A DNA stretch of 34,801 nt from Balneolaceae bacterium (GCA_007123985.1 SLGA01000176.1:1-34801); one strand, 5' to 3'. Shown: positions 7,480 to 13,815, counted from the first letter of the stretch. Translations and numbers: made by a program. The notes: generated from the letters alone by a model not told the origin.

Positions 7480-8253
7480 ATGATTCCAAAGTTCGCTTTT
7501 ACTTTGATCTTTTTGTGCTTAGCAACTATTCAGCTTAAAGCTCAACAACAAACTGAACAGGTTGAAAGCATGCTTGATGAAGCTGCTCAACTGATGGACG
7601 AGCATGATGATAATGGTGCACTTCAAATATATCTGAATATCATTGAAATCTCTCCCGATAATTATAATGCCCTCTGGAATGCAAGCTTGCTCTACTCAGC
7701 AATTGGGTTTCGGTTTGATGATGAAGAGAGACAGAAGGAGTATTTTAAAAAAGCTCAGGAATTGGCCGAAACCAGCATTGACCTCTACCCCGATCGTGGA
7801 CACCCTTATTATGTGATGGCAGTGGCAAAAGGCCGAATGGCTGATCATGTAGGCGTAAACCGAAGGATTGAATTAGGGCATATTATTGAAGAATATGTAA
7901 AAAAAGCGGTGGACATAATGCCCGAACATGCACCATCCTGGCATCTTTACGGGGTGTGGCAATCAGAAGTGGCAAATGTTAGCCGTGCTGAACGAATAGC
8001 GGCAAGATTTATATCGGGCGGGCTCCCGGACGGATCGAACGAGCTTGCTGAAGAGTACCTTCGAAAAGCCATACAATTTGATCCGGGCAGCATTCTTATC
8101 AGATTCGATTTGTCCCTTCATTTCTTAAGATCCGGACAAGATGAACTTGCAATTCCAATCCTTGAAGACTTAGTGGAAATGGAGCCAAAATTAAAAGACG
8201 ATCCTGAACATATTAAAGCTGCAAAAGAACATCTGAGGGAGTTACGCGGATAA
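7480..8253 (+). CDS. Secreted TPR protein, RMDN/FAM82-like
   Basis: This 257-aa protein has a signal peptide (hydrophobic residues 4-16, probable cleavage after LKA/QQ) followed by TPR-type helices across the rest. The block from ~115 to 200 (YYVMAVAKGRMADHVG, then an 'EEYVKKAVDIMPEHAPSWHLYGVWQSEVANVS' style segment, then FISGGLPDGSNELAEEYLRKAIQFDP) closely matches the RMDN (regulator of microtubule dynamics) TPR fold. That family is known in eukaryotes and has bacterial relatives. Its partner is unknown. It converges with the HlyD gene, with the two stop codons one base apart, and has a 166-nt upstream region of its own, so it is probably monocistronic. The RMDN link is from motif memory. 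Confidence 0.8.
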   Translation: MIPKFAFTLIFLCLATIQLKAQQQTEQVESMLDEAAQLMDEHDDNGALQIYLNIIEISPDNYNALWNASLLYSAIGFRFDDEERQKEYFKKAQELAETSIDLYPDRGHPYYVMAVAKGRMADHVGVNRRIELGHIIEEYVKKAVDIMPEHAPSWHLYGVWQSEVANVSRAERIAARFISGGLPDGSNELAEEYLRKAIQFDPGSILIRFDLSLHFLRSGQDELAIPILEDLVEMEPKLKDDPEHIKAAKEHLRELRG

Positions 8254-8254
8254 A

Positions 8255-9349
8255 TTAACGTCCCGGTCGCAATACAATGTCTACAATTTCACCCGGTGAG
8301 AGTGCTATTTCTAATGAAGGATCAATGGCAATTTTCACAGGCAATCCGCTTTCGTAGATAGCTCCGGGTCTTTGCAACTGGCTGTCGATCATTCGTATAT
8401 GCGCACCAATCTGTTCGATATTCGCTTCAAAAAAGCTTCTGCCAGGCTTACGGGTACGAACTTCAACAGCCATACCCGGCTCTGGTTGTACGGTAAATGG
8501 TTGCCGCAGATATCCCACAATATAGGCCGGTTCTGCTGATTCGATTCGCAGCAGAGAATCACCGGCAGCCACATATTCACCCCGTTTATGGTGTACCAAA
8601 CTCACAACCCCGCTGATAGGTGCATAAATTGGTAACGGTGCTGCCTCTGCGAGCAATGCTTCCATTTTTTGCTCCTGAACCCGGATAGCAGCAAGAACAG
8701 GATCACGATCGGATCGGGTATCATACCGCAGAAAATCTTCGTTCTCTCTGATTTTTTCACCAAGAAATCGGATAAGCTCTTCGGTTTCAGTCACTTCAAT
8801 GGAAAGTAGTTCGTACTCCATTTTTGCAATTTCGTACTCTTGATCAGAAATAAGCTCTCTTTCAAAAAGCTCAGTCGCGCGCTGATAGTTTAATCGTGCC
8901 TGCCCTTTTCTCAGCTGTATAGATGCGAGCGAAATACGGGTATTCAGCTCTTCAATTTTAAGGTCTTCAAGGTTGGAGCGGTTCCTTAAATCATCGGCAC
9001 CGGCATCCATACTTTCCCGGATCAGATCACTTTCTGCACGAAGCAGGCGTAACTGCGCATTCACAAACAGCGTATCCTCCCTGTAGATCTGGCCAATCAG
9101 CTGGCCTTCTTCAACCCTGTCGAATTCATTGTAGTAGAAGTTAATTAAAATACCATTTGCAGGACTAGCCACTGTTGAATGATCTCCAACAACTTCTCCA
9201 ATCATTGCGGGAGAACTCACCTGATTTTCCCACAAGAAGAATACTATTATCCCTACAATCATAAATACCAGCACCGGCAATGCGCGAACGCGCAATTCTC
9301 TTAGACGCTGCTTAAAAGGAATGGGAACCGGAGTATATTTTTTTTCCAT
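8255..9349 (-). CDS. HlyD-type membrane fusion (periplasmic adaptor) protein
   Basis: This 364-aa protein has one N-terminal membrane span (~residues 24-42). A first half of the lipoyl/barrel-sandwich domain follows (STVASPANGILINFYYNEFDRVEEGQLIG), then a long helical hairpin (~75-215, rich in E/R/L). The second lipoyl half is PIYAPISGVVSLVHHKRGEYVAAGDSLLRI, and a beta-barrel region follows to the C-terminus (IVDIVLRPGR). Such adaptors bridge an inner-membrane transporter to the outer membrane. No ABC, MFS or RND partner is nearby. Instead it follows the DUF4956 gene by 3 nt and the VTC gene beyond it. It is therefore an orphan adaptor that may work with those two proteins. Confidence 0.88.
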   Translation of the reverse strand: MEKKYTPVPIPFKQRLRELRVRALPVLVFMIVGIIVFFLWENQVSSPAMIGEVVGDHSTVASPANGILINFYYNEFDRVEEGQLIGQIYREDTLFVNAQLRLLRAESDLIRESMDAGADDLRNRSNLEDLKIEELNTRISLASIQLRKGQARLNYQRATELFERELISDQEYEIAKMEYELLSIEVTETEELIRFLGEKIRENEDFLRYDTRSDRDPVLAAIRVQEQKMEALLAEAAPLPIYAPISGVVSLVHHKRGEYVAAGDSLLRIESAEPAYIVGYLRQPFTVQPEPGMAVEVRTRKPGRSFFEANIEQIGAHIRMIDSQLQRPGAIYESGLPVKIAIDPSLEIALSPGEIVDIVLRPGR

Positions 9350-9352
9350 AGC

Positions 9353-10039
9353 CTAAATCTCCGATTCATCTTCAGCCCGAAGGCTGCTTACATTTGTAAC
9401 ACCTTCTATCGATTTTATTTCATCAAGTAGTAAGTCCACCCTATCCGGATCACGCATCAGCAATCTGTAGGAGAGATGTGTGGCATCAGAGTCATCACCT
9501 GATCGCTGTGATGCAAGCTTTGTTTTTAAGGTATGGCGTTGCAGAAAGTTTTGAAGCTGATCCAGTTTTGACAGTGGCAGTGCCCAGCTTAGATTCAATA
9601 TCAGATCGTACCGCTGCCGTGCACCAAAATTTGTAAACCAGATAAATATCAATGCCAGAGCCGCCACAAGTACACCGATAACAGCGGTTGTGAATTTTTG
9701 GGTACCACAAGCCATCCCAACAACAATAAGGGAGAGAATATAGACCGTATCAAGTGTATCCCGGAGTATATTTCTAAAACGAACAATGGCAAAAACAGCC
9801 AGTAAACTGAAGGCTGTAACAAGGTTGTTATCCAGAACCATCATTACAAGCGCAACGGTAATAGGTATTATGATTAGTGAACTCACAAAATTTCGTGAAT
9901 AAGAGAGTCCGGTGTGGGTGTACATATAGACCCACGCAAGCAACTGGCCGCACATAAACGCTAAAAGAAGGCCTAAAAGCAATGTAGGCAGATCTGTTGG
10001 AAGCGGAGCCGTATCGCCAAATTGTAACCAATCATTCAT
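9353..10039 (-). CDS. DUF4956 membrane protein, partner of VTC-domain protein
   Basis: This 228-aa protein has about four to five membrane segments between residues 18 and 134 and a soluble C-terminal part (~140-228). The conserved DUF4956 core is visible: YSRNFVSSLIIIP, LLAVFAIVRFRNILRDTLDTVYI and a following glycine-containing helix. The IVRFR..ld motif resembles the MgtC-like 'SIVRFR' pattern, and the C-terminal region looks like a small alpha/beta regulatory fold. Biochemical function is not established. DUF4956 genes are frequently next to VTC-domain polyphosphate polymerases, as here: 19 nt after the VTC stop and 3 nt before the HlyD start. A role as membrane channel or scaffold for the VTC product is inference. 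Confidence 0.85.
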   Translation of the reverse strand: MNDWLQFGDTAPLPTDLPTLLLGLLLAFMCGQLLAWVYMYTHTGLSYSRNFVSSLIIIPITVALVMMVLDNNLVTAFSLLAVFAIVRFRNILRDTLDTVYILSLIVVGMACGTQKFTTAVIGVLVAALALIFIWFTNFGARQRYDLILNLSWALPLSKLDQLQNFLQRHTLKTKLASQRSGDDSDATHLSYRLLMRDPDRVDLLLDEIKSIEGVTNVSSLRAEDESEI

Positions 10040-10058
10040 AAACCGGGAAAACGTTTAG

Positions 10059-10808
10059 TTATACAGTAGTTAGTCTTCTGTTTTTAATTTTTATGATACC
10101 ATCAACATACTTTGCAGCAGATTGCTGTCTCAAATGGAAAACCTGAATAAGCTCTTCCATCCAGTGCGGAAACCTGTCTGTAAATTTCAATTCGAGAATT
10201 ACCGTGTTTCCAAAAACCGAAACAGCGTTGTTAAACTGAGCATTGAACCCATCAATGAGTTTAAAACGAGAACAACTTTGTACAGATCTGTCGAAGGTGA
10301 CCCTTGCAGAGTTGTTATCGTGCCTTTCATATGCTTCTCGCAGATACGCAACATGAATTTTTGGTGAGGCACCAATCAGATTTTGCAGATATATAAAATT
10401 TGATAGCGATTGTAACTGCTCCGGATTTTGGTGAACAAGATGGTTGTATGTGGGAATACCGCCGTTCAGAAGGTCATTAACAAACTCTCTCTTCACACTT
10501 GCGCGCTGTTTTTTAATTACTTTATTATATCTGCGTTTTATCTCAAAATAGACCGGGCCTTCATTTTCATTGTAGTATCTAAGGCGGAGTTTAAACCGGT
10601 TTCTGTCGCCATTAATGGTATCCTGATAGGTTTTCAGATTGTTCGAATCCAGATACAGACTGTTCACCCGATATGATAAATTCGGTTGGGTTTGGCCATA
10701 TAAGTCACAATCGAGATAGGTTCGAACAAATTGACGAATCTGCAGAGCTTTCGACTCAGAAATTCTGTACTTCAGCTCAAACCGCTGTCTCTGGATTTTA
10801 TCTACCAT
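10059..10808 (-). CDS. VTC-domain polyphosphate polymerase
   Basis: This 249-aa protein belongs to the VTC/CYTH tunnel family, whose best known member is yeast Vtc4, which makes polyphosphate from ATP. The expected tunnel residues line up by motif: RFELKY (E11, K13), FKLRLRYY (R75, R77), YFEIKRR (K91), VIKKQR (K99/K100), YLREAY (R157), VTFDR (R174), ILELKF (E206 metal position, K208) and AAKYVDG (K233). Nothing essential seems missing, so it is probably active. It has no signal peptide or membrane span, and so presumably works at the cytoplasmic face next to the DUF4956 membrane partner encoded 19 nt downstream. Length matches bacterial single-domain VTC proteins. No SPX domain is present. 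Confidence 0.88.
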   Translation of the reverse strand: MVDKIQRQRFELKYRISESKALQIRQFVRTYLDCDLYGQTQPNLSYRVNSLYLDSNNLKTYQDTINGDRNRFKLRLRYYNENEGPVYFEIKRRYNKVIKKQRASVKREFVNDLLNGGIPTYNHLVHQNPEQLQSLSNFIYLQNLIGASPKIHVAYLREAYERHDNNSARVTFDRSVQSCSRFKLIDGFNAQFNNAVSVFGNTVILELKFTDRFPHWMEELIQVFHLRQQSAAKYVDGIIKIKNRRLTTV

Positions 10809-12900: not shown

Positions 12901-13815
12901 TCAATCAAAAAAGTTACGCAATGATTGCGGCATATTTTTAATATAACCTGCTTCCGCCTCTGATAAAGAAAGTGTTGATAAATCTGCATTCAACATGGAG
13001 GTTTTCCCATCTTTAACCATAGTAACCGATGGATTTCTGTTTGATAAAGCCTTTTCAAGATCTGCACTAATCATACCACTGCTAACCCCCTTTTCATTCA
13101 TAACAGCAAATAGATATGGCCCGGTATGTTCTCCCGCAAGCAGTGTAACAGCAAGCCTGGATCCATCACCAAAATCGATGATTTTGTAGTAATGACATAA
13201 CGGTATGCCTTCAAATTCTCCCTGAAAGGCAAGGTATCGTTTTCTGCCGCTAAATCCATCATCCCAAAAGCTATTTAGCAGATGAACCGAAAAATCTGCA
13301 AGTTTTTTTCCTGCACTTTTTTTCAAAAATCCTCTTTGAAACCAGTATTCTGCATCTCTCTCAAGAGGAGCAATTGTTGTTTGGTGAAACTGCGAAGGTA
13401 CCGCCTTTGTCTCCCCGTTTGAGCATTCAAACCACAAATCATCAACACCGTTTGTTAGTACAATGTATTTTGCACCAACTGATTGATTATAACGGGCTGC
13501 CTGCGCTGCTGTTCCCATAGTAATTGCCACGTTTTCGGCCTTGCACTCTATTAAAATTTCGGGACTCATAGCAGAGCCGTGGATAATCAGGTCTGCGCGC
13601 AGATCATTTGTAGCATGCTGACTTTTCACAGGATTCTCAATACCAATTCGTGATTTTTTCACATCTGTTTGATGCAAAAGAAATTCAAGCCAGGAAAGCC
13701 GAACTCTCTCTTCCGGTCGATTCTTGAATCGTTTTTTTAAAACCGGATTAAAAAGCCATTTTTGACTCTTATCAATTCTGATTTGCGGGAAGTGCATTTG
13801 GGCAGGACTCTTCAT
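12901..13815 (-). CDS. HsdR N-terminal-like (PD-(D/E)XK nuclease fold) protein, stand-alone
   Basis: This 304-aa protein has an N-terminal half matching the type I restriction HsdR_N domain common as a lone gene in Bacteroidota: 'PEERVRLSWLEFLL', a conserved acidic strand RADLIIH, and ILIECKAENVAI followed by AARYNQSVGAKYIVLTNG. The D...ECKAE pair is the PD-(D/E)XK catalytic core. The C-terminal ~130 residues (DGSRLAVTLLAG, FAVMNEKGVSSGMI) look like an extra beta-rich domain I do not recognise. There is no helicase part and no hsdM or hsdS nearby, so this is not a restriction system. It lies downstream of yidC behind a 50-bp hairpin. Its nucleic acid target is unknown. Confidence 0.72.
   Translation of the reverse strand: MKSPAQMHFPQIRIDKSQKWLFNPVLKKRFKNRPEERVRLSWLEFLLHQTDVKKSRIGIENPVKSQHATNDLRADLIIHGSAMSPEILIECKAENVAITMGTAAQAARYNQSVGAKYIVLTNGVDDLWFECSNGETKAVPSQFHQTTIAPLERDAEYWFQRGFLKKSAGKKLADFSVHLLNSFWDDGFSGRKRYLAFQGEFEGIPLCHYYKIIDFGDGSRLAVTLLAGEHTGPYLFAVMNEKGVSSGMISADLEKALSNRNPSVTMVKDGKTSMLNADLSTLSLSEAEAGYIKNMPQSLRNFFD

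Follow-up and report, generated by a model that had tools for sequence, protein, structure and literature searches.

A conserved gene cassette of VTC polymerase, DUF4956, and HlyD adaptor suggests export of phosphate chains toward secreted CotH kinases

Genes for a VTC-domain polyphosphate polymerase, a DUF4956 membrane protein, and an HlyD-family periplasmic adaptor stand side by side on a contig of the 3.0 Mb draft genome of a Balneolaceae bacterium (GCA_007123985.1, SLGA01000176.1), which was analyzed over its whole length of 34,801 nucleotides and is hereafter called the window. The architecture of this cassette is well supported, the adaptor beside DUF4956 is no chance neighbor, and secreted CotH is the strongest genomic partner of DUF4956. 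The cassette, as found in the Bacteroidota, and its association with CotH suggest a machine that exports phosphate chains to feed kinases. As such, the cassette would offer one answer to two questions, namely how bacterial polyphosphate leaves the cytoplasm and where extracellular kinases obtain their phosphate.

Organization of the cassette

The cluster is operon-like (Table 1). A sequence-only reading of the window had described its genes as lying on one strand, 19 and 3 nt apart, and had pointed out that the adaptor lacks an ABC, RND, or MFS partner. Both observations are borne out, the former by the ORF coordinates and the latter by the Pfam assignments of the neighbors (DUF308-like and TPR genes). 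Judged by ORFs and Pfam, the cassette is preceded on the same strand by the gene for a DUF308-like membrane protein, and aminopeptidase P is encoded upstream as well; downstream of the HlyD gene follows a convergent gene for a TPR protein. No ABC, RND, or MFS transporter gene was found in the window cassette, nor in the sister locus of type B (described below) that was examined by Pfam, and no pel genes are present among the window neighbors assigned by Pfam. The same three genes recur in the same order throughout the genus and among relatives that belong to further genera and families of this order, so the cluster is not a product of chance.

Table 1. Coordinates of the cassette in the window
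Feature	Position (nt)	Strand	Description
VTC-domain polyphosphate polymerase	10059..10808	-	249 aa, soluble, 0 membrane helices; PF09359
DUF4956 inner-membrane protein	9353..10039	-	228 aa; PF16316
HlyD-family periplasmic adaptor	8255..9349	-	364 aa; PF13437 + PF16576
VTC/DUF4956 intergenic gap	10040..10058	.	19 nt, operon-like
DUF4956/HlyD intergenic gap	9350..9352	.	3 nt, operon-like

Two further genes in the surroundings deserve a short mention. The TPR protein (window 7480-8253) carries a Pfam RMD1-3 match (2.4e-11), a family named after eukaryotic microtubule regulators. Between the aminopeptidase P and YidC genes lies that of a lone HSDR_N_2 protein (window 12901-13815), which is type I restriction N-terminal nuclease-like.

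The VTC polymerase

The window VTC matches PF09359 with an E-value of 4e-41 (141.6 bits, curated cut-off 23), and a profile of bacterial VTC proteins (n=38) aligns over the full length with yeast Vtc4 (3g3q; E 1.1e-20). Herein, K13, R75, R77, K91, and K100 of the window protein pair with K200, R264, R266, K281, and K294 of Vtc4, and R157, R169, E206, and K233 with R361, R373, E426, and K458. Eight of these residues (K13, R75, R77, K91, K100, R157, E206, and K233) are invariant in 38/38 homologues, and R169 is conserved in at least 90% of the 38. We take the aligned Vtc4 residues to line the catalytic tunnel, and the numbering offset to be that of the published Vtc4 structure. The earlier claim that the tunnel residues are all kept is upheld by this alignment, with two positions corrected (K99 becomes K100 and R174 becomes R169). 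Because these residues are kept, the window VTC likely makes polyphosphate, as far as can be told from its sequence.

The window genome also encodes PPK1, so VTC would be dispensable for ordinary cytosolic polyphosphate. In yeast, VTC couples synthesis to translocation via a basic channel (PMC9911596). VTC is never found without DUF4956 in our phylum sample, where all VTC genomes (49/49) have DUF4956 as well.

A dedicated HlyD adaptor

The adaptor is recognized by both HlyD_3 (PF13437; 2.5e-9, 38.3 bits, cut-off 22.2) and HlyD_D23 (PF16576; 7.7e-9, 35.6 bits, cut-off 30). It consists of an N-terminal membrane anchor (read from the sequence), a lipoyl-type domain, and an alpha-hairpin, and its best solved relatives are EmrA (1.7e-23) and MacA.

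Our survey covered 97 genomes from the GTDB family, 298 genomes from the phylum, and 80 named contigs, the latter taken from an all-bacteria-and-archaea collection and chosen by similarity to one query rather than at random. Two DUF4956 lineages emerged, the window type and a Bacteroides-type. HlyD adaptors, whose co-occurrence with DUF4956 the sequence-only reading had left to such a survey, turned out to be nearly universal for the window lineage and to form a dedicated family. Window-lineage DUF4956 has a same-strand HlyD gene nearby in 59/63 loci (a contig end truncates one of the four without it), whereas this is the case in 0 of 18 Bacteroides-type loci. In the latter lineage, a gene for a DUF2490 outer-membrane barrel comes next in both loci examined by Pfam (2/2).

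In the adaptor tree, the 43 DUF4956-linked adaptors split from 30 other adaptors of four genomes; the separating branch has a low support of 37, and 0 of 500 shuffles were equally clustered. Adaptor subclades correspond to DUF4956 subclades, and the identities of both proteins are strongly correlated (Mantel r 0.94 and 0.67), to which shared species history contributes. In G009, a member of the window's family with the other cassette type, adaptor and DUF4956 are both of the matching type, thus the cassette moves as a unit.

The gene order varies among relatives. VTC-DUF4956-HlyD is found in the window's order, and most other families of the group have HlyD-VTC-DUF4956. In the window's own family, many members have DUF4956-HlyD-TolC without VTC (type B), and mixed forms occur too. 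The idea of a three-gene system stands insofar as the cassette is conserved and needs amendment insofar as HlyD pairs with DUF4956 even in genomes without VTC. Since this pairing persists without it, the core in the window lineage is DUF4956-HlyD, with VTC as an addition.

We also considered the adaptor as a strict marker of diderm bacteria and rejected this, as outer-membraned proteobacteria and planctomycetes have CotH-VTC-DUF4956 without HlyD. Such runs (L218, L221, L222, L225, L226, L227, and L228) come from Omnitrophota, Bacteriovoracales, Planctomycetes, Desulfocapsaceae, Roseovarius, and CPR bacteria. In several of them, a different gene comes first (judged by eye to be TPR-like in L222 and L225-L227), and no Pel genes were recognized in these runs.

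The outer-membrane partner

Residues 157-168 of the adaptor, RATELFERELIS, form an exact R-x3-L-x6-S match (RxxxLxxxxxxS) on the alpha-hairpin, a motif that was shown to bind TolC (PMC3391258). This RLS motif is present at the hairpin tip in 33 of 43 VTC-linked adaptors, versus 3.5 expected by shuffling. Type B adaptors mostly lack it, and some adaptors have lost its serine.

TolC-type proteins are encoded in several sister loci. A Cytophagaceae contig (L205) contains the tight run HlyD-VTC-DUF4956-TolC (OEP 6e-39), and OEP proteins adjoin the cassette in L123 (1.1e-34) and L127 (4e-17). The third gene of type B has a weak Pfam OEP match, and its AlphaFold2 model has the TolC fold, with 44/44 matches at E<=0.001 belonging to the TolC family (best 2e-12). 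An interpretation of the type B genes after HlyD as ABC permease and ATPase was rejected, as they encode this TolC-fold protein and a short-chain dehydrogenase. The type B loci (L032-L037, L040, L041, L043-L046, and L131, from genomes without VTC) share the synteny DUF4956-HlyD-TolC-short chain dehydrogenase, together with MutS, BrkB, methylpurine glycosylase, YceI, and DUF6580 genes.

The window's own cluster contains no TolC gene. Elsewhere in its genome, five other OEP proteins are encoded, four on contigs with an HlyD match and one on C210, and no dedicated TolC for the cassette was recognized among these five. The C210 protein was dismissed as a dedicated partner and is probably a general TolC, since its gene is adjoined by an MlaC-like gene and by ATP synthase genes (read by eye). 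Another TolC-like candidate, L110 orf416, gave a weak hhalign result (22%) and was left out of the counts. The adaptor's outer-membrane partner is likely a TolC-type channel encoded elsewhere. Given the 59/63 adjacency, the dedicated adaptors, and the DUF4956-HlyD-TolC sets, an apparatus that spans the envelope and has DUF4956 as its inner-membrane part is well founded. To the picture drawn by the sequence-only reading, the TolC-type partner has to be added, as well as CotH, which that reading had missed.

The DUF4956 membrane protein

The window DUF4956 matches PF16316 with an E-value of 2e-11 (44.4 bits, cut-off 30.6). Its AlphaFold2 model (pLDDT 77) has five predicted helices (H17-41, H49-69, H73-89, H95-112, and H116-136) and a C-terminal domain with a beta-alpha-beta-beta-alpha-beta arrangement, which is ACT/ferredoxin-like. 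When this model was used for a fold search, only the ACT-like tail was matched (to ACT/S6-like folds), and a sequence search against solved structures returned nothing significant.

Comparison of DUF4956 with MgtC by hhalign gave a probability of 86% (E ~5e-7, 205-209 columns), or 75% with default settings, versus 0.1% for two other multi-helix membrane families used as controls. The window protein has no match to Pfam PF02308 (MgtC) or to an NCBIfam model, and a relative in L105 is matched by NF007431 (NCBIfam MgtC/SapB) at 8.8e-11 and 41.8 bits, below the cut-off of 214. The homologue from S. intermedius has been described independently as an MgtC membrane domain plus an ACT domain (PMC12345266). 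On the strength of profile and model, DUF4956 thus resembles MgtC/SapB with an ACT-like tail.

Only two columns, R87 and R89, are invariant across 67 DUF4956 homologues, and they are retained in VTC-less relatives too. If the basic channel of yeast VTC (PMC9911596) is taken as a model, both arginines could line an anion path. Within the window lineage, the mean pairwise identity of DUF4956 (0.75) exceeds that of VTC (0.57) and HlyD (0.47).

Association with CotH kinases

In the phylum sample, CotH is present in 69 of 76 DUF4956 genomes versus 40 of 222 without DUF4956 (p 1e-30), and in the family sample in 47 of 49 versus 5 of 48 (p 2e-19), whereby these p-values count genomes as independent, which the genus-stratified test within genera (p 5.5e-9) does not. 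The link with DUF4956 also holds among VTC-less genomes (25/26 versus 5/48), and 48 of 49 VTC genomes of the phylum sample have CotH, versus 61 of the 249 others. The CotH gene lies inside the locus in 41 of the 80 named contigs, a non-random set gathered for its similarity to a single query. PPK1 was considered as a partner too and discarded; it is present in the window genome and is not associated with DUF4956, CotH, or VTC (p 0.19, 0.11, and 1.0, respectively).

Type IX sorting domains are present in all five CotH proteins examined, i.e., the two encoded by the window genome and three from a VTC-less relative. These proteins should therefore act beyond the outer membrane, in surroundings with scarce ATP, and hence the cassette may be the supplier of their phosphate donor. 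The B. subtilis control has CotH, which acts in the mother cell there, and lacks DUF4956, in keeping with this hypothesis.

Some loci contain additional genes of interest. At L098:4915-6571, DUF4956 is followed by a gene of the phosphate-selective porin O/P family and by CotH, and this locus has neither VTC nor HlyD. Several HlyD-VTC-DUF4956 cassettes are adjoined by a gene for a secreted beta-propeller protein (SdiA-regulated/phytase-like), which may act on exported phosphate (L108:4148-4942, L118:4074-4868, L130:4181-4948, and L113:5673-6446; the L108 copy was assigned by Pfam and the others were likened to it by eye).

Proposed export machine and alternative explanations

In the machine that we propose, VTC would polymerize phosphate from ATP at the cytoplasmic face, and the nascent chain would pass to a DUF4956 oligomer that substitutes for the membrane channel of yeast VTC. 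The HlyD adaptor would be seated on DUF4956 in the periplasm, with its hairpin tip docking on a TolC-type channel encoded elsewhere, so that polyphosphate or a short phosphate polymer could reach the cell surface. There, it would most plausibly be the phosphate donor of T9SS-exported CotH, with little or no ATP being available outside. We infer the channel activity of DUF4956, the polyphosphate cargo, the protein contacts, and the use of polyphosphate by CotH. That the cassette is a synthesis-coupled envelope exporter, sending polyphosphate outward, plausibly as donor for CotH, has in our view somewhat less than an even chance of being correct. We find it rather unlikely that it represents a hitherto undescribed exporter class, driven by polymerization of its cargo, in which an MgtC-like inner-membrane unit, instead of an ABC, RND, or MFS transporter, moves polyphosphate across both membranes to fuel phosphorylation by surface CotH.

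Critically speaking, several observations count against this proposal. The strongest objection is that type B keeps DUF4956-HlyD-TolC and CotH without VTC; VTC-made polyphosphate is therefore not the sole cargo, unless PPK1 feeds the exporter. CotH-VTC-DUF4956 occurs without HlyD in many phyla despite an outer membrane, CotH is also present in the aforementioned 40 phylum genomes without DUF4956, and MgtC proteins are known regulators, not channels. S. intermedius aggregated less and had an altered Pel amount when either its DUF4956 gene or its CotH gene was deleted, an effect not reported for deletion of its VTC gene (PMC12345266).

The main rival sees DUF4956 as an MgtC-like regulator or sensor. 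Its cytosolic ACT-like domain would sense a phosphate-related ligand and control VTC or the envelope, with HlyD only as an anchor across the periplasm. This agrees with the MgtC/SapB similarity and the ACT-like tail, with the known effects of MgtC on ATP synthase and PhoR (cited in PMC12345266), and with the regulatory-looking increase in Pel amount in S. intermedius once its DUF4956 gene is deleted (PMC12345266). Yet we consider such a role unlikely, for it leaves unexplained the TolC encoded with DUF4956-HlyD in separate loci, the TolC-docking motif, and the strict presence of DUF4956 with VTC. Alternatively, polyphosphate might be delivered to the periplasm or membrane only, for metal binding, storage, or envelope stability, with an adaptor that shapes or clears the exit and no outer-membrane channel. 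The lack of a TolC gene in the window cluster would then be no surprise, nor would the lost RLS serine in some adaptors, and yeast VTC indeed delivers polyphosphate into a lumen (PMC9911596). We nevertheless judge this improbable, given the TolC genes of L205, L123, L127, and type B and the export of the CotH partners past the outer membrane.

The cargo could also be a phosphorylated glycan or another envelope polymer, with VTC transferring phosphate during synthesis and CotH modifying the polymer or a protein carrier. CotH-VTC-DUF4956 is indeed accessory to Gram-positive Pel loci (PMC7112168, PMC12345266), where deleting two of the three accessory genes changes the Pel amount (PMC12345266). 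The conserved Bacteroidota cassette, however, contains no glycosyltransferase, and the tunnel residues of VTC suit a linear phosphate polymer, leaving this explanation with little probability. Finally, a VTC-DUF4956 pair might merely sit next to an unrelated adaptor without any joint function. A genome does contain many HlyD genes (11 to 17 matches to PF16576), but the 59/63 adjacency across many families and in several gene orders, the dedicated adaptor family, and the correlated divergence make this extremely improbable.

A clean natural comparison is offered by close relatives of three kinds, i.e., those that have VTC, those that have just the DUF4956-HlyD-TolC core, and those that lack both. 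For DUF4956, which is present in many phyla, the exporter that we propose would be the first function assigned to the family, if real.

Comparison with known systems

With yeast VTC (Vtc1/Vtc3/Vtc4), the cassette shares a catalytic tunnel with the same basic residues and a proposed coupling of synthesis to membrane passage. Unlike the yeast complex, the window cassette has neither an SPX nor a VTC membrane domain, has two membranes to cross, and includes an adaptor. No sequence link was found between DUF4956 and the yeast VTC membrane domain. DUF4956 is similar to MgtC/SapB in its helix pattern, ACT-like C-terminal domain, and full-length profile match, whereas it stays below the NCBIfam cut-off, has no Pfam MgtC match, and has VTC, HlyD, TolC, and CotH as partners.

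Genes for CotH, a polyphosphate polymerase, and DUF4956 are known as accessory genes in Gram-positive Pel loci (PMC7112168), e.g., SIR_1592-1594 of S. intermedius (PMC12345266). VTC beside DUF4956 and a secreted CotH are common to both systems. The window-type cassette differs in that it occurs without Pel genes, has a dedicated HlyD adaptor along with TolC partners, and often has CotH encoded elsewhere. The VTC-DUF4956-CotH grouping is thus already published for Gram-positive Pel loci. A 2025 paper did not find the trio outside such loci (PMC12345266); contrary to that report, it is widespread outside Pel loci in our survey. In the open-licence literature that we searched, we found no account of a link with HlyD and TolC, of the trio occurring well away from Pel loci, or of the genome-wide association with CotH, and relative to that literature these appear to be new here.

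Lastly, as in HlyD/TolC tripartite efflux and type 1 secretion, there is a periplasmic adaptor with an RLS motif and (in sister loci) a TolC-type channel. The inner-membrane partner in published tripartite systems is an ABC, RND, or MFS transporter (PMC8277102), whereas DUF4956 is the only inner-membrane candidate for the window adaptor. If the export reading is true, HlyD/TolC machines would have a fourth kind of partner at the inner membrane.
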